Virus record (IMG/VR): IMGVR_UViG_3300021376_000208
Coordinates: 1-33,029 of that record
DNA length: 33,029 nucleotides
Direction: 5' to 3' (one strand)
Source: a virus
Both the position numbers and the translations under genes were made by a program. This document shows positions 5,841-30,437 of this stretch, piece after piece. The notes below the pieces were generated by a model that saw only the letters and a list, made by a program, of their open reading frames with translations, searched no databases and was not told the DNA's origin. Position 1 is the stretch's first letter. Every line of letters starts with the position of its first letter.

Positions 5841-7854
5841 TAGTATGTGTAATTTTTTGATCTGTAATACTATCTATATTGAGAGTAGTACCTAAGGCAT
5901 TTACTGTAGTATTGGAATTTCTTAGTACAGCTTTTCTTAAAGGAAATGCTTGCGCTATTAAATTATTAGTTCCAAAGAATCTATTACAAAATAATAAATC
6001 ACTAATGTTAGCGGTATTGTATGTAACGTCCCCGTTTTGTAACCTATAATTTGAATTTGTTTGCATACTAGAAGAATTTGATCCAAAAGGTAAGTTATGT
6101 ACAGTTGTGGTTGTACCGTTATAAGACGATACTGCAACTGTAGTCATTTCTGTTTGCATTATGTTACCTGAAACAGCATTAGACAACAACCAAGATTTAG
6201 CAGATGCGGGGGATGAAGAGGGAAACTCAGACAAATAAGTAGCTAATATCCCGGCTGCAATTGGACAAGCAGAAGAAGTTCCATTAAAAAATTGATATTT
6301 GTTATTGTTACTTACTGTAAAAAATTCACCAACACCCGGGTTTGCAGCTTGATTACTAAGTGCAGCCCATGCACCATTACCTGGAGTATATATATCAACA
6401 TCAGGACCAAAACTGCTATAAGCAGATTTTATAAAAAATGGACCTGATAGTGTGTTATATCTTGTAGAATTGTTTATTAAAATTCTAGATTCAGAATTAG
6501 TACCGGATAATACTGTATAAGCTGCTAATGCGTTGCCAGCTGTCCATATTTGATTTGCAGCTGCATCATTAAAACCAATAGGTATAATATCACCAACATA
6601 AATTATTGGGTAGGTTGCTTTACCGCCCGATACATTATAGCCTATATTTGGAGAGCCATACCAACTGACTGTACCATACAATAATCCAGTTGTGCTACCT
6701 GCTAAGTAACTACCGTATTCAGTATTGAGAGTATAACTTGTATTATTTGTTAAAGTTCTTAAAATTACAAAATTAGATCCGAATTTTCTAAAATTTATGC
6801 AATTAAAGGCAGATACTGAATTGTTGGTTAAGTATATATTATTATTTCCTGCTGCAACTAATGTATGTATTCCGTTAGATATTGCTGATCTAAAATAACT
6901 ATCAGCTGAAGAATTTTCACCTTGTAGACGGTTATAATTAAAAAACCCTGTAGTTTTACCCCCGCCAATAGAGTAATAAAAATCTAATGTATTTTGTTCT
7001 ACTCCTGTTACGTCGTTAGATATATAAGACCCAACATACCCCCAACTGTTAGTCCATATTGTTGATCTTGTACTACTTAAACCATGAAGGTTATTTTGTT
7101 TTGCTAATTGAAAAGCTATAGCCAATCTCATACATTGAGTAATAGAAAATCCGTCTGCTGTTGCACCTAGCTCATTTGACCTTAAAGCATAAATTTTTGC
7201 ATTTTTAGCAAACCCACATCTCTTACCTGCTACTAAACTTGCACATGCTGTGCCGTGCCCATCTGAATCTTGATAATAATTTGCAGATTGTGTAGTAACG
7301 ATTTGAGTTCCAGAAACAGGATTACCTTCTCTTAATAATGTCCAATTAAAATTTACAACAGTGCTTGTATCATTACTATCTGTTAAATCAGGGTGAGTAG
7401 CATCTACTCCACTATCTAATACTAATATATCTACATTACTGCAGTCAATAGAAGATAAAGATACAAACATACCACTAGTAATACCGGTTTGGGTATAATT
7501 TAAATTATAATCTTGACAATAAAGAAGATGATTTGGAATACAATCGGTAACACTTAATCCGTTGAATGAAGTAGTTTTAGAAGCTAATCTAGGTATTCCA
7601 TTTTGAGATGTCTTGGTATACCAATGTGTAACTTCTTGACTATCTTCATTAATTCTTATTATCTTATCGTTTTTATTTAATGTGTCAATCTCTTTCTGCG
7701 TCAAATCAAATTCCATTACATCAGGTAAAATTTCATGTGAATCAATGCAAGTTTTTTCACCTGATAATACAGAACAACCACTTAAAGGATTAGTCAATAA
7801 GTCATATATAAAGTCAGAATCTTCTCTATCTTTACATAATATAGATACTCTCAT
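5833..7854 (-). CDS. Subtilisin-like serine protease, probably virion-associated
   Basis: 673 aa, peptidase family S8. The catalytic triad is visible: Asp147 in VDILVLDSGVDATHPDL, His200 in DSDGHGTACASLVAG and Ser527 in NGTSSACPIAAG. The oxyanion-hole Asn337 is in LVAAGNNN. The first ~115 residues look like an I9-type or other pro-region and there is no signal peptide, which fits a protein carried in the particle or active in the cytoplasm. The C-terminal ~110 residues are Asn/Thr-rich like virion proteins. It is the distal gene of a late minus-strand cluster with a Thr/Pro stalk protein, and has its own late-type box. It may process structural proteins or degrade host surface proteins. Confidence 0.9.
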   Translation of the reverse strand: MRVSILCKDREDSDFIYDLLTNPLSGCSVLSGEKTCIDSHEILPDVMEFDLTQKEIDTLNKNDKIIRINEDSQEVTHWYTKTSQNGIPRLASKTTSFNGLSVTDCIPNHLLYCQDYNLNYTQTGITSGMFVSLSSIDCSNVDILVLDSGVDATHPDLTDSNDTSTVVNFNWTLLREGNPVSGTQIVTTQSANYYQDSDGHGTACASLVAGKRCGFAKNAKIYALRSNELGATADGFSITQCMRLAIAFQLAKQNNLHGLSSTRSTIWTNSWGYVGSYISNDVTGVEQNTLDFYYSIGGGKTTGFFNYNRLQGENSSADSYFRSAISNGIHTLVAAGNNNIYLTNNSVSAFNCINFRKFGSNFVILRTLTNNTSYTLNTEYGSYLAGSTTGLLYGTVSWYGSPNIGYNVSGGKATYPIIYVGDIIPIGFNDAAANQIWTAGNALAAYTVLSGTNSESRILINNSTRYNTLSGPFFIKSAYSSFGPDVDIYTPGNGAWAALSNQAANPGVGEFFTVSNNNKYQFFNGTSSACPIAAGILATYLSEFPSSSPASAKSWLLSNAVSGNIMQTEMTTVAVSSYNGTTTTVHNLPFGSNSSSMQTNSNYRLQNGDVTYNTANISDLLFCNRFFGTNNLIAQAFPLRKAVLRNSNTTVNALGTTLNIDSITDQKITHTII

Positions 7855-7859
7855 AATAT

Positions 7860-7865
7860 TATTTA
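7860..7865 (-). promoter_or_regulatory. Late-type promoter box for subtilase
   Basis: TAAATA on the minus strand, 5 nt before the ATG at 7854. Confidence 0.6.
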
Positions 7866-8573
7866 ATTAAAAAACTGGTTGTTGATAAAAATGTAGTTTG
7901 CAGGAGTAGCAGTAGGAGTTTGCGTCGATGTTGGTGTGGGTGTAGGTGTTAATGTTGTTGTGGGTGTTGGTGTCGGTGCAGGTGTGCTAGTGGCTGTTCT
8001 AGTAGGTGTATTTGTTGGTGTTGGTGTGTTTGTAGGTGTCTCAGTAGGTGTACTAGTGTTTGTTGGGGTTATAGAAATTGTAGGGGTTAATGAAATTGTT
8101 GGTGTGTTTGTGGGTGTTTCTGTTATTGTATAAGTAGGGGTATATGTAGGGGTTCTTGTGATAGTAACTGAAGGGGTGTTAGTACGCGTTAAAGTCGGTG
8201 TATTAATGGGTGTTCTCGTGGGTGTAACCGTAGGAAATGGGGTCTTTGTAGGGGTCTTTGTGGGAGTAATGGTTACGTTTGGTGTATTAGTTATAGTAAA
8301 AGAGGGGGTAAGAGTTAAGGTCTGAGTAAAAGAAGGTGTTATTGTTATTGTTTCTGTAGGGGTTGTAGTTGTAGAAGGAGTAAACGTTATAGAGGGAGTA
8401 ATAGTAGGTGTAATAGTAATAGAGGGAGTAACTTTAGGAGCTCCAGAGTTATTATTATTTTTTCTAGCAACAAAGCTACCAAAAGATAATGCCCCTATTG
8501 CATTTAACTTATTTAAAGATGAGAAATTGGTAGAATTAACGTATCTCTTCTTATTGGGATTACTACCTGCCAT
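7863..8573 (-). CDS. Thr/Pro-repeat stalk protein
   Basis: 236 aa. Residues 1-45 form a basic leader ([11 protein letters not shown]), and about 46-224 are low-complexity TPT, TPS, TNTP and ITPT units resembling mucin-like or fibre-stalk sequence. The last ~12 residues ([10 protein letters not shown]) are a short hydrophobic tip. Such stretches probably form an extended spacer in a phage fibre or neck whisker. The gene shares its ISITPT-type units with the protein at 23471-24943. Late-type box 5 nt before ATG. Confidence 0.8.
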
Positions 8574-9438: not shown

Positions 9439-9444
9439 CTTATT

Positions 9445-9517
9445 CGCCTAGTAGTCCAATGGCAGAGACAAACGACTTAAAATCGTTCAAGTGTCAGTTC
9501 GAGTCTGACCTAGGCGA
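9445..9517 (+). tRNA. tRNA-Leu(UAA), short variable arm
   Basis: Acceptor stem CGCCTAG/CTAGGCG, 5-bp anticodon stem AACGA/TCGTT with loop CTTAAAA (anticodon TAA), T arm GTCAG-TTCGAGT-CTGAC, discriminator A, no encoded CCA. The variable region is only 5 nt (CAAGT), whereas bacterial tRNA-Leu normally has a long variable arm. The D stem is weak (3 pairs). Reads UUA, common in this AT-rich sequence, provided it is charged with leucine. Confidence 0.9.
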
Positions 9518-9525
9518 AGCAAATC

Positions 9526-9553
9526 TTGAACAAATTTAAAATTCCTTTATATT
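9526..9553 (+). promoter_or_regulatory. Sigma70-like promoter TTGAAC-N16-TATATT
   Basis: TTGAAC (9526-9531), 16 bp, TATATT (9548-9553), 6 nt, ATG at 9560. May also drive the five tRNAs at 9845-10282. Confidence 0.7.
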
Positions 9554-9559
9554 ACAATT

Positions 9560-9841
9560 ATGGACATTGATTATTATTTAGAACAGATTGAAATGCACAA
9601 TTCTAGCTATGAATGGATTGTAAGAGAATCTGAAAAAGTTGCTGTTGAACTTAAAGCTTTAGATAAGCAAGAAGAATTCGATTTTGATAAATATGAAAAG
9701 ATTACTAAGCGCTTTATGGAGTTAGAGGATCGTTTTAAGCGCAATAAAAAAGATTACGACGCTGTAGTAAGTCAAGTAAGAGCTTATTTTAGTGATAAGC
9801 ATGGTATTGATTTAATGGGCTTACTAGATGATCAAATATAA
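9560..9841 (+). CDS. Small acidic helical protein
   Basis: 93 aa, nearly all alpha-helical and charged, consistent with a coiled-coil hairpin (YLEQIEMHNSSYEWIVRESE ... RFMELEDRFKRNKKDYDAVV). It ends DLMGLLDDQI. No family recognised. Leaderless promoter start. The next tRNA begins 3 nt after the stop, so gene and tRNA array are probably cotranscribed. Confidence 0.65.
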   Translation: MDIDYYLEQIEMHNSSYEWIVRESEKVAVELKALDKQEEFDFDKYEKITKRFMELEDRFKRNKKDYDAVVSQVRAYFSDKHGIDLMGLLDDQI

Positions 9842-9844
9842 TTT

Positions 9845-9935
9845 ACCTCCGTCGTCTAACCGGTTAAGACCCTACACTTATAATGTAGTCGCTCTAGATT
9901 TGGGCAAAATGAAGGTTCGAATCCTTCCGGAGGTA
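9845..9935 (+). tRNA. tRNA with anticodon UAU (Ile?) and long variable arm
   Basis: Acceptor stem ACCTCCG/CGGAGGT, D stem GTCT/AGAC with GG in the loop, anticodon stem CTACA/TGTAG with loop CTTATAA (anticodon TAT), T arm GAAGG-TTCGAAT-CCTTC, discriminator A. The variable region is 22 nt with a GCTC/GGGC hairpin, so it is a class II tRNA. Class II is normal for Leu, Ser and Tyr, not Ile, so the charged amino acid is uncertain. It decodes AUA by anticodon. Confidence 0.85.
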
Positions 9936-9945
9936 CAATTTTACT

Positions 9946-10019
9946 GCACCTATAGCTCAACTGGATAGAGCAACGGATTTCTAATCCGTAGGTTTCAGGT
10001 TCGATTCCTGATGGGTGCG
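9946..10019 (+). tRNA. tRNA-Arg(UCU)
   Basis: Acceptor GCACCTA/TGGGTGC, D stem GCTC/GAGC, anticodon stem ACGGA/TCCGT with loop TTTCTAA, T arm CAGG-TTCGATT-CCTG, discriminator G. Reads AGA, the favoured Arg codon in AT-rich genomes. Confidence 0.93.
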
Positions 10020-10033
10020 GGATATATATTGAT

Positions 10034-10120
10034 GGACAGATGGCAGAGTGGTCTAATGCGTCTGACTTGAAATCAGAAGTACCAGCAATGGTACCGTGGG
10101 TTCGAATCCTACTCTGTCCG
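10034..10120 (+). tRNA. tRNA-Ser(UGA)
   Basis: Acceptor GGACAGA/TCTGTCC, anticodon stem TCTGA/TCAGA with loop CTTGAAA, long variable arm GTACC...GGTAC as expected for Ser, T loop TTCGAAT, discriminator G. Confidence 0.94.
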
Positions 10121-10125
10121 AATTT

Positions 10126-10197
10126 TGCTCAGTAGCTCAGCGGTGGAGCGGGGCACTGTTAATGCCTAGGTCGTAGGTTCGATCCCTACCTGAGCAG
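10126..10197 (+). tRNA. tRNA-Asn(GUU)
   Basis: Acceptor TGCTCAG/CTGAGCA, D stem GCTC/GAGC, anticodon loop CTGTTAA, T arm GTAGG-TTCGATC-CCTAC, discriminator G. Confidence 0.93.
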
Positions 10198-10199
10198 AT

Positions 10200-10282
10200 G
10201 GGTAGATACCGAAGTGGCCAAACGGGGGAGACTGTAAATCTCTTGGCTTACGCCTTCAGTGGTTCGAATCCACTTCTGCCCA
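10200..10282 (+). tRNA. tRNA-Tyr(GUA)
   Basis: Acceptor GGGTAGA/TCTGCCC, anticodon loop CTGTAAA, class II variable arm around GGCTTACGCC, T arm GTGG-TTCGAAT-CCAC, discriminator A. Starts 2 nt after tRNA-Asn. Confidence 0.93.
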
Positions 10283-10322
10283 ATATTGAATATCAATGAG
10301 TTAAAATTTACAAAAAAAACAG

Positions 10323-15055: not shown

Positions 15056-15622
15056 GTGTATATAGTTTGCTCATTACCTCGCACTGGTACCTTGTCAATG
15101 ACTAGCATGGCAAATACTGTTGGGTTAAAACCAAAACATATAGGAAGCACTGCAACATTTGATTTTATTACAGGTGGAAAATATAACTTTTTTTCAGATA
15201 CTCCTTTTTATTCACCTACATTTTTACACATAATAAAAAATGTAAATTTTAAATTAATCTATATTGAAAAAGATCCTAAGGCTATTTATGAATCATGGAA
15301 AAAAATAAATTTATTAGTCAATTTTAAAAAAGGAGAAACTTTAGTAAAGAATAACAACTACGTTGAAGCACAATTTTTAGATTATGCATGTTATCTAGAA
15401 TTATTTAAAACAGTAGAAGTTACAGAAGAAATTTTTATAAAAGCAGTAAATGATCATAAGCAAAAAATTAAAGATTTTGTAAATTTTACCAATAAGCCCA
15501 TTTTATATTATAACTTTAATATGGGGTGGGAGCCATTTTGTCAATTTACTAATACACAAGTTCCCGCTGAAACAGATATTCCAAAATTAAACGTAAATAC
15601 AATGTTTGATAAGATTGTCTAA
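15056..15622 (+). CDS. Sulfotransferase-family P-loop protein
   Basis: 188 aa from GTG. The N-terminal strand and loop MYIVCSLPRTGTLSMTSM match the P-loop of the small sulfotransferase family (Sulfotransfer_4 type), and the closing motif WEPFCQFTNTQVPAETDIP with a following Asn matches that family's typical W-PLC-FLG-PVP-PFP-N end. It is shorter than most members. The substrate is unknown; such enzymes are frequent in aquatic phages and might modify host or virion surface sugars. Under a late promoter, divergent from the exported protein. Confidence 0.8.
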   Translation: MYIVCSLPRTGTLSMTSMANTVGLKPKHIGSTATFDFITGGKYNFFSDTPFYSPTFLHIIKNVNFKLIYIEKDPKAIYESWKKINLLVNFKKGETLVKNNNYVEAQFLDYACYLELFKTVEVTEEIFIKAVNDHKQKIKDFVNFTNKPILYYNFNMGWEPFCQFTNTQVPAETDIPKLNVNTMFDKIV

Positions 15623-19053: not shown

Positions 19054-19794
19054 TTATTGAATAACAAATCCATTCTCAAAGACCAAATCTCTGTCTTCAA
19101 AATCTTCACCTGTTTTTATGGCATACACTAACAAATCTTCTAAGAATGTGCATTTGTAAATTTTTCTTTTTTCTCTATTAACTAATCTCTTAAAATTATA
19201 GAAATTATTGACATCTGCAACCAAGAAAGAATCCTCTAGTCTTGCAGAAGTTATTATAATTGAGTTTTCCATTTCAAACACTGGTATGACTCTGAACATG
19301 GGTACACCTCCTACCACATTTGTAATATCAACACCAGATGTGTTGTTGCTTTGCTTATGAGTTATACTTAAGAATATTCTACTTCCTTGTAGGAAAGAAT
19401 AAATCAAAAGTTTATGATTTTCAAAACCTGTGTATGCACCAGGTGCAATCAATCTGTGTTCACCTATAACATTAAAATCATTATCTATTTCAACTCTGTA
19501 CAGAGAAAAATCTGTCAATGGATTGTAATTATCTAATGTTTCTTCTGTTAATTCTGGGCTTTTAATATAAGAAATAAATTTTTTATCTCCTTCTTCTGAA
19601 TAAACTGGATTGCATTCGATTTGATTTGCGAAGTTAAATAACTTTTTATCTTCATTGGTTGTCAAGTCTCTTGCATATATTGATTCAAAGGAGATTTTTC
19701 TGTTGTTGCTAAACACAGTTGGTTCACCTCCTTTGGTAAGCAGTAAAAATTTATTGTCATTTTTTTTAAACAAATAAGGTTGATGGTTTTTCAT
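19054..19794 (-). CDS. Virion-operon protein of unknown function
   Basis: 246 aa, beta-rich with repeated strand-turn units (NHQPYLFKKNDNKFLLLTKG, SFLVADVNNFYNFKRLVNRE, DLLVYAIKTGEDFEDRDLVF), suggestive of a small propeller or solenoid fold; no family named. It follows the 965-aa protein by 4 nt and has a late-type box overlapping that gene's stop, 5 nt before ATG. Probably a structural or accessory tail protein. Confidence 0.65.
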   Translation of the reverse strand: MKNHQPYLFKKNDNKFLLLTKGGEPTVFSNNRKISFESIYARDLTTNEDKKLFNFANQIECNPVYSEEGDKKFISYIKSPELTEETLDNYNPLTDFSLYRVEIDNDFNVIGEHRLIAPGAYTGFENHKLLIYSFLQGSRIFLSITHKQSNNTSGVDITNVVGGVPMFRVIPVFEMENSIIITSARLEDSFLVADVNNFYNFKRLVNREKRKIYKCTFLEDLLVYAIKTGEDFEDRDLVFENGFVIQ

Positions 19795-19798
19795 ATGT

Positions 19799-22696
19799 TT
19801 ATTTAAAGAAAAACATGGTGGTTGCTCCCATGCTTGGAGCAGAAGCTTGCACGGTTCCTACAATTTCAGGTTCATTGCCTCCATTGAAGTTTATTCCTAT
19901 TCTGCTTCCAACCAGATTGGAATTTACAAAAAATCTGCCAATGATGGGTGGTACCTTGCCCCCCACGTAAAAATCTCTGATCATTTTATAATTGCCCAAT
20001 TCATTAGAAGCAGTTGCAGTTTTAACAAAAAACTTAACATTGGGGTATGATTTTCTGTAGCTGTTGGGATCATGATCTCTCTCATAATCAAAATCATACC
20101 CCACACCATTGGCACCCCATGTACCCACACTATCCCACCATCTGGTAGAACTCTGAACTCTTTGTGCTGGTCTTATTTTTAATGAAAAATCTTCTCTATA
20201 AGATAATGGTACTGAATTTATATCATAACCAATACAAAAATTTTGATCTGTAAATTGGCCTGCCATCTGCACAGCGCTGGTAGCTTGAAGGGCATTTAAA
20301 TTTAAGTCTGTTTTAAATTTATTAAAGTATCTTAAGTTACAAAACCCCATGGGAGCTGTCCACCCATAAGTAGCATCAGGCACAGGAGCTGTTGCAGAAA
20401 TAGGGAAATTACCGGTACTAGATAATGGTTTCCCTAATGCTACTCCTAAAGAGCATGCACTGTGAACTCCAAAGGTAGTATGATAAAATTTAATTAATTG
20501 AAAATCATTACTTCCAGGGCCTCCAGCTCCTGCAGCAGTTTGCCAATTAATAATACCATAATCTGTATATGTAGCAGATATAGGCCAAGTTCCTATTGCA
20601 TTATAAGCTGCTGCAAAACAATTGTAAGGGAACATCCAGTTTGGTCTTGCACAGTAAGTGCCTGAATCAAGGCTATCATAATTAGGTATAACTGTTCCTT
20701 TTCTATAAATGTCTCCCAAATTTGGATCCATGATAAATTCAGAGAATCCCTTAGATACTCCTCCAACATAAAGCGCATCCGAGGGTGGTATATTGGTTAA
20801 TATAAAAGTATAGGTAAATGCTGAAAGCATTATTGTATTTGCACCAAAATCTGCACTGTAAGAAAGCATTAATTTATTTGTATTTGTAGGGATAAACCAC
20901 GACTTCATTTCGTCTTTACTAATAGCGTATTTCTTATACTCCACATTATTTGCAGATACAGTTGTTAGAGTAACATAGAATGTGTTACTAGGATCATCTT
21001 TTGGAATAAAAATAATTTTACCTGAGATGGCAGGATTGTTTGTGCATTTATAAAACCAAACAGCCTTGTGATCATGAGAAGGACCTGCTTTAAATCCTGG
21101 ATAGTTTGGGTTAAGATGATTATAAACACAACCATATCTCATGGTCCAGTTGGCATTTACATTTCTTAAATAAGAAGATATGTCCATGTATATGCTTGAG
21201 TTATAAACACCAGTGTAAGGATTGTTATTAAACATAATAACATGGCTTCTGTAATAATCGCCAAAATCAAAAATATAATCTTCTTGATACCAGAAGCTGT
21301 TGTCATAATCAAAAGAGGGCATTGCAGGTATACTTGGTGTAGTAACTTTATAGATAGCAATAGCATTTTTTCTGGATAATTTTGTGCAGTCAAACTTTAC
21401 AGCTTTTCCATGTTCAAATTTTACTAAAATATCTTCAGATCTGATTCCGTTTATATACAGATTTACTCCATCATGATCATCGAAAAATATAGTGTCTGAT
21501 ATAGCTTGATTATTTCTGTATGTGGATGGTTCGCTAGAAGGAGATGTTGTGAAGGTGCGGTTATAAGGGTTTACTTTTAAAAACCAGTTTCCTCCTCCAA
21601 TGTTTCCTGGTAAAAAATTATAATATTGTTCACCATTGTTAAACAATAGATTGCTTGGCTTATAGTTTACTACTGAAGGGGCTGCTCCTCTGGAAGGTAC
21701 TGCAGGTGCCAGGGGAACCAGAGGATTTGGATCACCAGCTACTGGTGTATACGGGTTAGGGGTTACATAGTCATTTTGCGTTGATTGTGACATGTTAACA
21801 TCACCTTCTGCACGATCTGGAGGTCTACCTAACAAGCTAAATAATGGGGCATCTCCGTAATTTTCATTTGGCCAAGCATTGAATCTAGCAACGTTGGCCA
21901 GATTGCTGGTATTAAAATTCTTGTTATGATTATTCCATACGTTTGTAAAAGTTGTAGAACCAGTTTGAAGCCCTAGCAGTGTGCTAAATTTTGTAAGTAA
22001 ATTTTTTACACTTTCTTGTGCAGCTTGCCACAATCCCCAAGCAAACCTTGCAGGAGCAGTTCCTGACCAGCCGCCCCCTCCTCCACAGCCTCCTCTGGTA
22101 CTACTTGTTCCCATTTGTGGTTGTAGTGGTGAGCCTGGGCTATTGAGATCTACCATAGGTGATAATCCAGTTTCTGGATAAACAGACTTACCATTGTCTT
22201 CTGTGGCAGTGGGATCATAATTGGATGCATCTTTATCTGGTGACCCTTTATTATCATTAGCATTTTTAGCAAGAAAATATTGACGGGCACTTTCCTTACC
22301 ATCCAATAAATCTTGAGTTTGTTGAAGTAATTCTTGTTCACTCTTGTTAAGATTTTGATAACCTACCCAGATATTAAAAGCTTCTATTAATCTGCCTATT
22401 TTTTTCAAAAGCGAATCATTTTGATTTACAGCTCCCGGAGGAATTACAGGACTATTTTGTGACAAGATTTGATTTTTTTGAACTTGAAGGGTATCTATCT
22501 GATTTTGAAAATTAGTAACTTGCTGACTGGCCCATCCATATTGTTGTCCAGCAGAAATCATTTGTTGGTTTAAAACTGAGATTTGTTCTTCAATGGTCCT
22601 TGCATTTTCTGGTGTTAAGGGATTTCTCATACGGGCAACCACTCTTAAACCTGTGGTCACATATGATTCTTGGGCTTGTTGAGGAAAATCACTCAT
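19799..22696 (-). CDS. Large virion structural protein, 965 aa
   Basis: The N-terminal ~145 residues are Gln/Asn-rich and coiled-coil-like (ARTIEEQISVLNQQMISAGQ ... LNKSEQELLQQTQDLL). A Pro/Ser/Gly linker carries TSSTRGGCGGGGGWSG (about 200-215), recalling the RGGC insert in the tail-fibre paralogues. The remainder (~310-965) is Tyr/Asn/Pro/Phe-rich beta-type sequence like large tail or baseplate appendage proteins. No enzymatic motif. Late-type box 5 nt before ATG. Third gene of the operon from 24943 down to 19054. Confidence 0.75.
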   Translation of the reverse strand: MSDFPQQAQESYVTTGLRVVARMRNPLTPENARTIEEQISVLNQQMISAGQQYGWASQQVTNFQNQIDTLQVQKNQILSQNSPVIPPGAVNQNDSLLKKIGRLIEAFNIWVGYQNLNKSEQELLQQTQDLLDGKESARQYFLAKNANDNKGSPDKDASNYDPTATEDNGKSVYPETGLSPMVDLNSPGSPLQPQMGTSSTRGGCGGGGGWSGTAPARFAWGLWQAAQESVKNLLTKFSTLLGLQTGSTTFTNVWNNHNKNFNTSNLANVARFNAWPNENYGDAPLFSLLGRPPDRAEGDVNMSQSTQNDYVTPNPYTPVAGDPNPLVPLAPAVPSRGAAPSVVNYKPSNLLFNNGEQYYNFLPGNIGGGNWFLKVNPYNRTFTTSPSSEPSTYRNNQAISDTIFFDDHDGVNLYINGIRSEDILVKFEHGKAVKFDCTKLSRKNAIAIYKVTTPSIPAMPSFDYDNSFWYQEDYIFDFGDYYRSHVIMFNNNPYTGVYNSSIYMDISSYLRNVNANWTMRYGCVYNHLNPNYPGFKAGPSHDHKAVWFYKCTNNPAISGKIIFIPKDDPSNTFYVTLTTVSANNVEYKKYAISKDEMKSWFIPTNTNKLMLSYSADFGANTIMLSAFTYTFILTNIPPSDALYVGGVSKGFSEFIMDPNLGDIYRKGTVIPNYDSLDSGTYCARPNWMFPYNCFAAAYNAIGTWPISATYTDYGIINWQTAAGAGGPGSNDFQLIKFYHTTFGVHSACSLGVALGKPLSSTGNFPISATAPVPDATYGWTAPMGFCNLRYFNKFKTDLNLNALQATSAVQMAGQFTDQNFCIGYDINSVPLSYREDFSLKIRPAQRVQSSTRWWDSVGTWGANGVGYDFDYERDHDPNSYRKSYPNVKFFVKTATASNELGNYKMIRDFYVGGKVPPIIGRFFVNSNLVGSRIGINFNGGNEPEIVGTVQASAPSMGATTMFFFK
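19800..19805 (-). promoter_or_regulatory. Late-type promoter box inside operon
   Basis: Minus-strand TAAATA overlapping the upstream stop codon, 5 nt before the ATG at 19794. Confidence 0.5.
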
Positions 22697-22697
22697 G

Positions 22698-23471
22698 TTA
22701 ATATTTAGCTAGAGTTACGAAAGAAGAACATAGTGTAGGAAAATTTAGGTTATATTTTAAAAGATATATATTTTGATTATCAATTGATGGAAGTATTAGA
22801 TGTGAACTAAGAGGCAATCTCCAGCTTGTAACAGGTGGTAAAGATTCAGATGTGCCCAGATATTCTGATCTGCAATTCACAAGCAGTTCTTGATTTCTGT
22901 ATCTGCCTATAAAAAATTCATAATCTCCACATGAAACAACCATAAATCCTGTTGAACTAGTAAGTACAAAATTAGTTACATTTTCAGTTGCAAGAACTGT
23001 AATTGTATTTCCAGAATTCAATACGCCTGGAACAAAGTAATGTACAGCTGTAGCGGGGATTTTGTAGGTGCATTTAAATTTTATATATGTTAATTCTGAA
23101 GGAACAAATTTTTGAGAATATTCACTATAATTATCTACTTGTGATCCTGATACATAATATGTAAGAAAGCTGCTTAATGAATTGTTATTTACATCTTTTG
23201 TAAGACTAAGATTTATTGGTACGCTATTAAATGCACTTTGAATAAAATATGCAGTACAATGCTCAAGAGATAGTGATGGTTTTAATACATTATTTAAATA
23301 TATTCCTCTTTGGCCCACAACTGTAAAAAAATCTATATCAGTATAATGGGGATCAACAATTAAAAAAGGGTTGTTAAAAGGCTCCATAGGATGATCATAG
23401 AAATAATGTTGACCAGCTACACCGGCATATCCTGAAGGTAGCCCCGTATGTATTAAAATAGGGTCAGGCAT
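22698..23471 (-). CDS. Virion structural protein, beta-rich
   Basis: 257 aa, Ser/Asn/Tyr/Phe-rich with alternating strands and no helix-rich part. It starts [20 protein letters not shown] and ends with SSHLILPSIDNQNIYLLKYN, then LNFPTLCSSFVTLAKY. No family recognised. Its ATG overlaps the stop of the upstream stalk protein and has a Shine-Dalgarno (GAGGTGA, 8 nt before ATG), in contrast to the leaderless first genes. Likely a tail or fibre component. Confidence 0.65.
   Translation of the reverse strand: MPDPILIHTGLPSGYAGVAGQHYFYDHPMEPFNNPFLIVDPHYTDIDFFTVVGQRGIYLNNVLKPSLSLEHCTAYFIQSAFNSVPINLSLTKDVNNNSLSSFLTYYVSGSQVDNYSEYSQKFVPSELTYIKFKCTYKIPATAVHYFVPGVLNSGNTITVLATENVTNFVLTSSTGFMVVSCGDYEFFIGRYRNQELLVNCRSEYLGTSESLPPVTSWRLPLSSHLILPSIDNQNIYLLKYNLNFPTLCSSFVTLAKY
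22702..22707 (-). promoter_or_regulatory. Late-type promoter box
   Basis: Minus-strand TAAATA, 5 nt before the ATG at 22696. Confidence 0.6.
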
Positions 23472-24943
23472 TAGCTTATCACCTCATTGTTAGAACTATT
23501 TATAATGGATACTATTTCATTATACTCTGTTTCAGTAAACACAAACCCTGGATCTATAGAATCTATAGAAGGTGTTGGAGAAGGAGTAGGTGTTATAGTG
23601 GGTGTGGGAGTGATGGTGGGAGTAGGTGTAGCAGAAGCATTAGGAGTAGGAGATACCTCAAATATATCTGTTAAAAAAACATTGCCCGGAGCAAACGTTC
23701 TATTAAAACGAGGTGATAAAGGATTACTTACATCAGGAATAAAAGTATAGGGTTGACCGTTACGCGAAGGGCTTAATGTTACTAAAGCTATTAAAACACC
23801 GTTATAGTATAAAAACATATCAAATGGTGTTGGGCTACCGCTAGCAGTTCCATTGAAGAACAAGCCACAATTATTTTCAGTTTGAAATCCTACCCCTTGT
23901 GTATAAAGATTACCAGGACCTATAAGCTGATTTAAAAATCCTGTAGGAGTAGGAGGAGGGGCGGCCACAACCTGAAATTCTAATGTATAATTGGTATTAG
24001 ACCCTAGCTGCTGTACTCTCACTGTATAATTGCCAGAATTGTAAGGTGCTGCAACTGATAAAACTTCTTGATTTATATTTCCGGGTCCAAAATGTTGATT
24101 AGCTAACATTAAATTAGGATCAATTCCTGCAGTCCATGCAGAACCAGATTGAATGCCCAACCAAGCAACATTGTCAGAAGAACTGTAACTTCTAAGAAGA
24201 ATTTTATTTAATATTTGATTATTCCCTACAGTGAACTTAAAGTAATCACTATTTCCAGCTACAGAAGCAATAACTAAGCCGTTACCGTTATTTAAAGTTA
24301 CAGCAGTTGGTAAACCTGCAGAATTAGAAAGAGATCCATTTATGCTTTCATTCCAAATAGTATATGCTGTATTTGTAGATGTGGGTGTAACGGTCGGCGT
24401 TTTAGTAGGCGTTTCAGTAGGTGTTCTAGTATTTGTAGGTGTTGCGGGAGGTGTTCTAGTATTTGTAGGTGTATGGGTAGGGGTAATAGAAATTGTTGGA
24501 GTATTACTAGGTGTAATAGAAATTGTTGGAGTATTACTAGGTGTAATAGAAATTGTTGGAGTCTGGGTAGGGGTCTCTGAGGGAGTGGGGGTAATAGTTT
24601 TAGTAATTGTATTAGTAATTGTATATGTAGGTGTTTGAGTGTGTGAAGGAGTAATAGTAGTTGTAATAGTATTAGTAATGGTATATGAAGGTGTATTTGT
24701 AGGCGTAATGGTGAATGTAGGTGTAAATGTAGGTGTAGGATTATTCGAAGGAGTTATAGAAATTGAAGGAGTTACAGATATGGTAGGCGAAGGTGTAGGT
24801 GTTTGTGATGCAAAAAATGGCATTCCGGGTAATCCTCCGGAACCCGGTCCAGATTTAGCTTTAGCTTCTAATGATAAAAGCTTTTGAACTTCTCTTGTTT
24901 TTCTTCGCTTAAGATCGTCAAATGAAGGGTATATAACTGCCAT
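23471..24943 (-). CDS. Thr/Pro stalk protein with PPC-like and beta domains
   Basis: 490 aa. Residues about 1-45 form a basic leader. About 50-195 are Thr/Pro repeats, including three exact [10 protein letters not shown] units. About 200-330 resemble a pre-peptidase C-terminal (PPC) beta-domain ([13 protein letters not shown] ... [20 protein letters not shown]). A second beta part (about 335-430) follows, then another TPT stretch and a short helical end. This reads as an extended fibre carrying small beta domains. First gene of the minus-strand operon, with a late-type box 6 nt before ATG. Confidence 0.78.
24484..24569 (-). repeat. 30-bp tandem repeat, about 3 copies
   Basis: The unit beginning AATAGAAATTGTTGGAGT recurs every 30 bp at 24485, 24515 and 24545, the first two copies being identical over the full unit. 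It encodes the decapeptide [10 protein letters not shown] in the stalk region. A likely site of copy-number change by slippage or recombination. Confidence 0.85.
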
Positions 24944-24988: not shown

Positions 24989-25061
24989 GGGCCTATAGCT
25001 CAGCGGTCAGAGCAGGGCACTCATAATGCCTTGGTCGGGGGTTCAAATCCCTCTGGGCCCA
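24989..25061 (+). tRNA. tRNA-Met(CAU) or tRNA-Ile2 after lysidine modification
   Basis: Acceptor GGGCCTA/TGGGCCC, D stem GCTC/GAGC, anticodon stem GGGCA/TGCCT with loop CTCATAA (anticodon CAT), T arm GGGGG-TTCAAAT-CCCTC, discriminator A, no CCA. CAT could be elongator Met, or Ile if modified; initiator features (an unpaired first base, three G-C pairs at the base of the anticodon stem) are not seen. A lipoprotein start codon follows 10 nt later. Confidence 0.92.
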
Positions 25062-28459: not shown

Positions 28460-28672
28460 ATGAGCAAATTATCTGATTTAGTCGGCAGTATTAAATTCGC
28501 ATTGGAAGACGTAGTTTATTCTATTCAGAATAAAGTATTAAACATATACGAATATGTAAAATATGATATTCTTAAAAAAGATTATGATCTTCCAGAATTT
28601 AAAATTGAAGATGATATAATTGAAGAAGCTCCTAAAAAGAAAAAAAAGACAAAGAAAAAAAAGAAGAAGTAA
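28460..28672 (+). CDS. Small protein with poly-lysine tail
   Basis: 70 aa: a helical part (LSDLVGSIKFALEDVVYSIQ), an acidic stretch (EFKIEDDIIEEAP) and a C-terminal run of Lys with few Thr. The Lys tail could bind DNA or RNA, or the packaged genome, since the late-type promoter suggests a virion or late role. The beginning of a gene at 32998 has a similar start (MSKLSSLID). No family recognised. Confidence 0.65.
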   Translation: MSKLSDLVGSIKFALEDVVYSIQNKVLNIYEYVKYDILKKDYDLPEFKIEDDIIEEAPKKKKKTKKKKKK

Positions 28673-28783: not shown

Positions 28784-28803
28784 AAACTAGTTGCATCTAG
28801 TTT
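28784..28803. repeat. Inverted repeat around a -35 box
   Basis: AAACTAG (28784-28790), TTGCAT, CTAGTTT (28797-28803). The -35 box of the large RNA promoter is exactly the loop. On the minus strand it also ends in a T run and could stop antisense transcription; as dyad DNA it could be an operator. Confidence 0.6.
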
Positions 28804-28818
28804 AAAAGCACGTATAAT
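28791..28818 (+). promoter_or_regulatory. ncRNA promoter TTGCAT-N16-TATAAT
   Basis: TTGCAT (28791-28796), 16 bp, consensus TATAAT (28813-28818); predicted RNA start near 28825. Confidence 0.7.
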
Positions 28819-28824
28819 CATTAT

Positions 28825-29231
28825 TAGTTCTTTGATAGCAAATCTGTAGGAAGTAGAGGTTGGGACCTCGAAGGTAAATCCTGAATAGTCCAACGCCATG
28901 TCCCATAGGCGAATATGTGCAGATATGTGCATAAATGAGTGAGAATATGATTGATGGCAGTATTGAGTTGTTAAAAACGCTTTACTTAAGCCCATCTAAA
29001 CTAGAAATCATATATAATAAAGTCTCCGGCTAGTATTACAGGTCTTAAGGCTTAGATGTGAGAAGAATCAACACGTCAAACTTATAAGGCTAATTACACT
29101 TAACTTTGATCGTAAGTTAGATCAATATTAATATCGATAACGGTGTAGTTGACCTGGCAGATTGCTAGTTTCTTTCCGCGAACCGTGACGCGATAAATGA
29201 ACGTATATAGCAATATATACGTTCTTTTTTT
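28825..29231 (+). ncRNA. Large structured RNA, ~400 nt, unrecognised
   Basis: It runs from a standard-geometry promoter to an intrinsic terminator. A closing helix joins TAGCAAATCTG (28836-28846) with CAGATTGCTA (29158-29167), 10 pairs with one bulge across ~310 nt. Nested inside are CAGGTC (29039-29044)/GACCTG (29151-29156), TACAC (29095-29099)/GTGTA (29143-29147) and a TAACTT/AAGTTA hairpin (29101-29119). The 5' part has hairpins GAGGT-TGGG-ACCTC (28856-28869) and CGCC/GGCG (28894-28911) whose loops are complementary (TGGGA with TCCCA). It lacks the conserved cores of RNase P RNA, tmRNA, 6S RNA and group I/II introns as far as I can see. Function unknown. Confidence 0.72.
29199..29231 (+). 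terminator. Rho-independent terminator of large RNA
   Basis: GAACGTATAT (29199-29208), 6-nt loop, ATATACGTTC (29215-29224), then a T run. Confidence 0.9.
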
Positions 29232-29288: not shown

Positions 29289-30437
29289 ATGAACATAAAA
29301 CTGCCGGTGTTACAAAAAGTAACTCTGGAATCAGGAACAAGATATTACGTCACTCCTGACGGAATTAAATATCCTTCCGTTACAACCGTTATTTCTAAAC
29401 GAAAGAAAGAACAGTTAAAGAAATGGCGAGAAAAGGTTGGAGAGGAAGTAGCTAAAGAAATTAGTAAAAAAGCTACTATTCGAGGTAATATATTTCATAA
29501 TAATTGCGAACAATATTTAAAGAAAGAACCGATAACAGAGAGTATTGGTTCTATGTTTGATAGATTTATACCTCTTCTTGATAGTATTAGTGATATTATA
29601 TGTTTGGAGCAGCATCTCTATTCGAATGAATTAAGAGTAGCAGGACAAGTAGATTGTGTCGGTAAGTTTGACGGTAACCCTTGTATTATAGACTTTAAGA
29701 CAAGCTCAAAATTTAAGAAGAAAGAGTTTATCTGGGATTACTTTATGCAAGCGACTGCTTATAGTTATATGTTCGAAGAACGAACTGGTATTAAAATTTC
29801 AGATTTAACTATTCTTATCACTTGTGAGACCGGAGAGGTTCAAGTATTTCAAGATATTAGAGAAAACTGGATTGAGAAATTTAAGGAATTAAGAGAAGAG
29901 TATGAAAAAACTGTTGAACAATCATCTTCTTGCAGCAATAATAATAATGTGAGCGAGAGAATTACTTCAAAATGGACAGAATCTGTTTTAGATGCTTTTG
30001 GCGATAAACCTAATGTAACAAAGGGTGTTAAAGCAGAAGAGCTAATTCATAACTATCTTAAAGGAGTATACAATAAGGTTACATGGTTTCATAATAAACG
30101 AGATAAACAAGTTAAAGGTATTGACTTTGAGTTTAAGAAAGATTCTTGGAAAAACAGTTATACTGCAGATGTTAAAGGTAATTTAAAGAATGGTAAATTT
30201 TTCGTTTATATTGATGAAATTAGAAACAAATCTAATCATCGTATGATACATGTAGATACAGAGACCGGATGGGCTGTAGAATATGATAGAGAGTCTATGA
30301 TTAATTACCTAGACAGTAAGCCTGAGCTTATTAAAATAGATAAAAATAATAATAGATTTGCTTTACTTGAATCTTATAGCTTTCTTCTTAAAAGGCGTAT
30401 TAATCATTTTAGACCATTCAAAATAAAGCTTGCTTAA
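29289..30437 (+). CDS. PD-(D/E)XK nuclease with second nuclease-like C-terminal domain
   Basis: 382 aa. Domain 1 (about 1-215) is a RecB/Cas4-like exonuclease: a His in RGNIFHNNCEQYL (motif I-type), VAGQVDCVGKFDG then IIDFKTSSK (the D...DxK active site) and QATAYSYMFEE (the Q-x-x-x-Y motif). Domain 2 (about 225-382) again has a PD-(D/E)XK-like pattern: KAEELIHNYLKG, then KGIDFEFKKDSW...YTADVKGNL and a strand FFVYIDEI, as in restriction-endonuclease-like folds. Both domains keep Asp and Lys candidates. Likely acts in phage DNA processing or host DNA breakdown. Confidence 0.85.
   Translation: MNIKLPVLQKVTLESGTRYYVTPDGIKYPSVTTVISKRKKEQLKKWREKVGEEVAKEISKKATIRGNIFHNNCEQYLKKEPITESIGSMFDRFIPLLDSISDIICLEQHLYSNELRVAGQVDCVGKFDGNPCIIDFKTSSKFKKKEFIWDYFMQATAYSYMFEERTGIKISDLTILITCETGEVQVFQDIRENWIEKFKELREEYEKTVEQSSSCSNNNNVSERITSKWTESVLDAFGDKPNVTKGVKAEELIHNYLKGVYNKVTWFHNKRDKQVKGIDFEFKKDSWKNSYTADVKGNLKNGKFFVYIDEIRNKSNHRMIHVDTETGWAVEYDRESMINYLDSKPELIKIDKNNNRFALLESYSFLLKRRINHFRPFKIKLA

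Follow-up and report, generated by a model that had tools for sequence, protein, structure and literature searches.

The closest described systems are the large RNAs GOLLD, ROOL and OLE. Letter-switching palindromes in OLE and GOLLD have been argued to reflect pairing between copies, the half-shells of the GOLLD 14-mer are joined by two self-interacting kissing loops, the strand-to-loop pair J6/8-L8 of ROOL is intermolecular, and Kretsch and colleagues raise, in closing, the question whether large natural RNAs commonly form cages (PMC12286853). The present work concerns a locus in 33,029 nt of an uncultured virus (IMG/VR record IMGVR_UViG_3300021376_000208), the analysed stretch as a whole being referred to as the window. 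Positions 28825-29231 on its plus strand, which have a small lysine-tailed open reading frame (28460-28672) on one side and an exonuclease gene (29289-30437) on the other and contain no convincing gene, almost certainly form a structured RNA gene, judged from the comparative evidence below. A stand-alone non-coding RNA gene of an uncultured T4-like phage lineage is the best explanation of this locus, with a predicted RNA of about 345 nt, or about 405 nt including the 3' tail and terminator in the window.

With GOLLD this RNA shares a phage-encoded, stand-alone gene near tRNA genes, many covarying helices, a variable linker, and two self-interacting sites in the 3' region, here predicted from sequence (sites A and B below). 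GOLLD exceeds 800 nt, in contrast to about 345 nt here, and the present RNA has other helices and lacks a separate divergent 5' domain. ROOL is likewise a phage RNA found near tRNA islands with a closed multibranched fold, and its J6/8-L8 strand-to-loop bridge is comparable to the UAACU strand and P15 loop described below, whereas its 659 nt and 19 stems make it about twice the size of this RNA, which has 15. GOLLD is a closed 14-mer cage and ROOL an octameric cage with D4 symmetry, whereas for the RNA reported here any oligomer is a prediction. In OLE, a symmetric contact was deduced in a similar way from a switching palindrome (GGCC to GAUC or AGCU), but OLE is a bacterial extremophile RNA with membrane protein partners, and there is no Rfam match here. 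The phi29 pRNA, a phage RNA that forms rings through loop-loop pairing, resembles the assembly proposed below; it differs in its length of about 120-170 nt, in serving the phi29 packaging motor and in bringing two different loops into contact, and no T4-like phage is known to rely on a pRNA-type RNA.

Homologues were found by nhmmer, covariance model and BLAST searches in at least 12 other viral contigs, giving 10 distinct sequences, one of them partial, with identities from 91% down to about 67%. Two close relatives reached via the exonuclease gene have RNA identities of 91% and 86%, and their flanks are not alignable to those of the window beyond the RNA and its promoter. Further members came from scanning viral contigs for patterns of the conserved 5' domain and then running a profile search; among the matches listed, L034 (= L043), L036 (= L038, L045), L025, L027, L069 (= L090, L130), L166 and the partial L143 carry the RNA. 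Each member record searched contains one copy. Scanning for an independent 3' motif gave 11 stretches, of which all but two chance matches were known members, so the family looks small in the collection scanned; further members are possible. Two sets of candidates were rejected as chance matches, namely L012, where an exact 18-mer lies within unrelated sequence and the RNA is absent, and L393-L396.

The best-assembled member phage is the 229.7-kb T4-like contig of L090. Its major capsid protein is of T4 type (Gp23, E 7.8e-91) and, among cultured phages, ranks closest to those of cyanophages, with about 32-34% identity. BLAST of cultured phages with the window RNA and two distant members produced only short chance matches, and pattern scans of bacterial and archaeal genomes returned none and then two chance matches in which the remainder of the RNA was absent. 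In four cultured T4-like phages, the syntenic loci leave no room for the RNA, and their whole genomes yielded nothing convincing with R1, a covariance model built here from the family. With R1, every full member searched scored at least 325 bits, and 41 non-member control loci gave nothing convincing.

The single-sequence fold of the window RNA was more stable than 100 of 100 dinucleotide shuffles at a modest z of -2.9, and the case for a structured RNA therefore rests on the homologues. Nine distinct full members were aligned with MAFFT without structural guidance and analyzed with RNAalifold, which predicted 62 pairs, 30 of them with compensatory change; none of 500 shuffles reached as many. 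The consensus energy was -61.3 kcal/mol, compared with -11.4 (sd 3.2) in 200 column-shuffled alignments (z -15), and 96.9% of paired cells could pair, compared with 84.0% (sd 0.9) in shuffles. When the partner strand was offset by 1-3 columns, this proportion fell from 97% to about 31-35%. A hand model, in which P3, P7, P8 and P9 were added where the automatic alignment failed and P13 was re-registered, comprises 15 helix segments and 78 pairs, with 694 of 702 cells paired (98.9% canonical) and 41 pairs compensated, against a shuffle mean of 23.5 (sd 2.5) and maximum of 32. The unguided alignment provides the fairer test, because the hand alignment is biased towards structure.

The resulting fold is a closed multibranched one. 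P1 closes it, P2-P6 make up a 5' domain, P7-P9 form a central arm whose tip varies, and P11-P15 constitute a 3' domain. The two strands of P1 are 311 nt apart in the window and are re-paired with other letters in the four most distant homologues; the helix reads AUUUUAUCUG/CAGAUAAAAU in L166. The central arm occurs as GAGA/UCUC, GGGA/UCCC, GAGU/GCUC and AGGU/GCCU, as AUAUGAU/AUCAUAU and others, and as GAUGG/CCAUC, AGUAG/CUGCU and GGUAG/CUACC; the GAUA tetraloop of P6 (28922-28925) is invariant. Two other pairings were discarded: the helix GUUGGGAC/GUCCAAC, preferred by the window's single-sequence fold, is broken in L166, and P2 and P3 covary; a T-arm reading of UUCGAAUCC fails because the motif is lost in the window clade. 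No conserved reading frame was found, with stops in all six frames, and the longest stop-free stretches lie in differing frames, mostly on the minus strand.

A sequence-only reading of the window had proposed an unrecognised structured RNA gene in a region without a convincing protein, bounded by a helix with strands some 310 nt apart and containing nested long-range helices. The homologues and their covariation support this reading. That reading had named pairs that fail to co-vary, or a conserved protein frame, as what would count against it; the pairs co-vary and no frame is conserved. All the features it named, among them its -10 promoter and perfect-stem terminator, were found where it had placed them (Table 1), the terminator being confined to the window clade.

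We infer that the RNA is transcribed as a stand-alone unit from its own sigma-70-type promoter, with a predicted 5' start near 28825 in the window. The sequence AGTTGC(A/T)(T/C)C is kept 5' of the RNA in aligned members, the distant L025 and L027 included, and an AGTTGC(A/T)TC...TATAAT element is kept even in L027; the window contains no other promoter site of this type. At the 3' end, the separate 11-bp terminator is restricted to the window clade, where its stem is compensated (GAACG/CGTTC in the window, GAGCG/CGCTC in relatives). Distant homologues have a U-rich tract directly 3' of P1, and downstream of this tract the exonuclease gene of the distant clades has its own promoter-like sequence.

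Table 1. Features of the RNA gene in the window (helices and sites as in the nine-member alignment)
Feature	Positions	Strand	Sequence and evidence
Promoter CTAGTTGCATC...TATAAT	28787..28818	+	TTGCAT 28791-28796, spacer 16 nt, TATAAT 28813-28818
RNA gene	28825..29231	+	Predicted start to terminator; homologues by nhmmer, CM, BLAST
Conserved core of RNA	28827-29169	+	Homologues by nhmmer, CM, BLAST
P1, 5' strand	28836..28846	+	UAGC-A-AAUCUG (TAGCAAATCTG); covaries: UAGC/GCUA, CAUC/GAUG, AUUU/AAAU, others
P3, 5' strand	28848..28851	+	AGGA; pairs with 28879-28882; AGGA/UCCU, AAGA/UCUU, AGC/GCU
P2 hairpin	28856..28869	+	GAGGU-UGGG-ACCUC; GAGGU/ACCUC to AGGGU/ACCCU
P3, 3' strand	28879..28882	+	UCCU; partner of 28848-28851
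P4, 5' strand	28886..28890	+	Pairs with 29028-29032; single-sided changes only
P5 hairpin	28894..28911	+	CGCC...GGCG, CCCA in loop; stem invariant
P6 hairpin	28914..28933	+	8 bp; 7/8 pairs with compensatory change
P7, P8, P9, 5' strands (central arm)	28941..28957	+	Covariation
P9, P8, P7, P4, 3' strands	28992..29032	+	Alignment pairing
P11, 5' strand	29039..29044	+	Pairs with 29151-29156; six versions, all paired
P12, enclosing P13	29049..29091	+	29049-29051/29089-29091; alignment
P13 hairpin	within 29049..29091	+	29055-29059/29073-29077; 8 versions; 5/5 pairs compensated
Palindromic site A (J13/12)	29082..29087	+	UUAUAA; palindrome in 9/9; three states: UUAUAA, UAUAUA, UACGUA
P14, 5' strand	29092..29099	+	Pairs with 29143-29150
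UAACU and P15 hairpin	29101..29123	+	UAACU 29101-29105; P15 29108-29111/29120-29123: GAUC/GAUC, GGUC/GACC, GCUA/UAGC, GCUG/CAGC
Palindromic site B (J15/14)	29132..29139	+	UAUCGAUA; 8-nt palindrome in 9/9; two states
P14 and P11, 3' strands	29143..29156	+	Pairing with 29092-29099 and 29039-29044
P1, 3' strand	29158..29167	+	CAGAUU-GCUA (CAGATTGCTA; CAGAUUGCUA); covariation with 28836-28846
Small hairpin	29178..29193	+	CGCG-AACCGTGA-CGCG; window clade only; alignment
Intrinsic terminator, perfect stem	29199..29231	+	Stem 29199-29224, then T7

All unpaired columns of the nine-member alignment were scanned for complementarity, and two sites were self-complementary. Site A always lies 1 nt 5' of the P12 3' strand; site B, whose segment was right-aligned, always lies 3 nt 5' of the P14 3' strand and reads UAUCGAUA in the window and AUUCGAAU in other clades. 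Since both stand at a fixed distance from a helix, there is little alignment freedom at either. When the order of the 150 unpaired columns was randomised 20,000 times, a variable 6-nt palindrome present in nine of nine members arose with p = 0.0005, rising to 0.003 when columns were swapped only within classes of variability and A+U content; two separate palindromes, or a variable 8-nt one, arose in 0 of 20,000. Under the consensus fold both sites are mostly unpaired (mean unpaired probability 0.68-0.98). Unpaired self-complementary sites that switch letters, taken here as the mark of a self-assembling RNA, are thus present as A and B in all nine members.

Pairing at A and B would have to take place between two copies, since pairing among adjacent bases of a single strand is impossible. 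The statistical evidence suggests, at about even odds, that copies of the RNA pair with each other at these sites to form a homo-oligomer. The self-duplex of site A, which is rich in A+U, has little stability in some members (-0.6 to -4.3 kcal/mol), the letter changes at A and B amount to few evolutionary events among nine full sequences in about five lineages, and the evidence at site B is one switch between clades.

Two other candidate contacts link loops and strands. TGGGA (28861-28865) and TCCCA (28901-28905) lie on hairpins P2 and P5, and the P2 loop (28861-28864) is complementary to the P5 loop. GGG/CCC is invariant, so this pair gives no covariation signal, and UGGG/CCC(A/G) is present in eight of nine members; a kissing contact between P2 loop UGGG and P5 loop CCCA is possible and compatible with these data. 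The P15 loop AGUUA (29115-29119) is complementary to UAACU, and as both are invariant in nine of nine members they too give no covariation signal. A full-length H-type pseudoknot of UAACU and the P15 loop in cis, alongside P15, was rejected because no linker is left over; a 3-bp version in cis is possible.

Transfer RNA genes adjoin the RNA in four members, as in GOLLD and ROOL. Same-strand tRNAs Thr-Gln-Arg end 68 nt before it in L027, same-strand Leu-Met-Glu and Ile-Glu-Arg tRNAs stand a few hundred nt 5' of it in L090 and L166, respectively, and a same-strand tRNA-Met lies directly 3' of it in L025. The tRNA gene closest to the RNA in the window is 3.8 kb distant; a cluster of six (Leu, Ile, Arg, Ser, Asn, Tyr) occupies 9444-10283 and a seventh (Met) 24989-25061. 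The window exonuclease matches PHROG 298 (E 2.6e-70) up to about residue 217 only; the part beyond it, apparently a second conserved domain fused to the exonuclease, is similar to a sequence that forms a separate gene (7603-8172) elsewhere in the L090 locus. In L001/L002 the RNA lies 3-4 kb further upstream of the exonuclease gene.

Immediately 5' of the RNA, the window (28460-28672) and L045 (4662-4913) encode a small protein of 70-83 aa with a C-terminal lysine tail; the window protein has no Pfam or PHROG match and possibly binds nucleic acid. L006 (375-1487, 2648-3184) and L045 (4935-5477, 6021-6569) carry genes of tail-collar or tail-fibre-like type with a common N-terminus, MADV(T/A)IS; these genes flank the RNA and differ between close relatives, marking a gene-swapping hotspot around it. 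Sugar-nucleotide genes are found near the RNA in distant members (L027 7197-8006, L025 3897-4937; UDP-glucose dehydrogenase-like, nucleotide-sugar epimerase). Elsewhere in the window, 15056-15622 encodes a sulfotransferase-domain protein (PF17784, E 2.1e-16), unusual in a phage, and four consecutive minus-strand genes at 19054-24943 encode proteins of 246, 965, 257 and 490 aa; none has a Pfam match above cut-off, and those compared with PHROG gave at most one weak match, of unknown function.

We propose that the RNA, once transcribed from its own promoter, would fold into the closed P1-P15 structure, and that site A would pair with site A, and site B with site B, of a second copy in symmetric contacts. 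The loop-strand contacts (P2 with P5 loops; UAACU with the P15 loop) could add bridges within or between copies, giving a dimer, larger ring or cage. For this self-assembly mechanism as a whole we estimate a probability of roughly 0.5; that a dimer or larger assembly takes the form of a cage or ring is a more tentative suggestion. During infection, an assembled RNA might serve as a scaffold or container made of RNA alone, with tRNAs or components of translation as possible contents; this cargo or scaffold role is a guess.

The main competing account, to which we assign a substantial minority of the probability, is a monomeric structured RNA that binds a host or phage protein or the ribosome as a decoy, sponge or regulator, comparable to 6S RNA, with A and B being chance or protein-binding palindromes. 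The strongly conserved 5' domain (AGGUUGGGACCUCGAAGG...GAAUAGUCCAACGCC..ACCCA..GGCGA) and the P6 tetraloop look like a binding surface, HEARO, of similar length, requires its protein for folding, and the lysine-tailed protein gene is at hand in the window and L045. This account, however, leaves two position-locked, letter-switching palindromes unexplained, and the exonuclease aside, no conserved protein gene accompanies the RNA in all clades; the exonuclease itself is common in phages where the RNA is not found. A new ribozyme or self-processing RNA would fit the invariant single-stranded segments (CUAGUAUUAC, GAAUAG) and compact multibranched fold, but it is very unlikely, given no flanking exon pattern, cargo gene or match to a known ribozyme model.

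Location and style recall GOLLD and ROOL, yet it is highly improbable that the RNA is a divergent representative of a class already described (GOLLD, ROOL, OLE, HEARO, group I/II intron, tmRNA or RNase P): Rfam 15 gave no match to these families in the RNA up to E 10, and its scan of the window and eight member loci returned only tRNAs and weak chance matches, with no intron catalytic core. Dedicated GOLLD (RF02032) and ROOL (RF03087) models had no match at E<=10 in nine whole records, nor by cmscan, the ROOL model giving none in control genomes either, in agreement with the sequence-only reading, which could place the RNA in neither class; ARAGORN and Rfam found no tmRNA, either as tRNA-like domain or tag frame. 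The open-access literature searched contained no description of the family, which is very probably new and absent from Rfam. Least probable of all is a cis-acting leader or attenuator of the exonuclease gene, although that gene lies directly 3' of the RNA in the window, L090 and L027. A terminator or post-P1 U-rich tract and a separate promoter-like sequence intervene, and the RNA is not always directly upstream for co-transcription: at least one tail-fibre gene separates the two in the L045, L034 and L001/L002 contigs, and in L025 the RNA is followed by the tRNA-Met and an epimerase gene. Because tail-fibre genes have been inserted or lost beside it, at least one in each of several members, the RNA cannot be regarded as a fixed exonuclease leader.

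Under the self-assembly reading, the family might represent a new class of unusually small self-assembling phage RNAs, with about 345 nt per chain, two different symmetric self-contacts in each chain that could close it into RNA-only rings or cages, and an origin in T4-like phages separate from GOLLD and ROOL, a view we hold tentatively. The family provides an independent test case for the cage question, being easily synthesised, with named contact sites and natural compensatory variants. If the RNA is monomeric, it is still a well-supported family that Rfam lacks; should it assemble, quaternary structure made of RNA alone would be seen to recur in a phage lineage that is unrelated, in an RNA half as large as ROOL.
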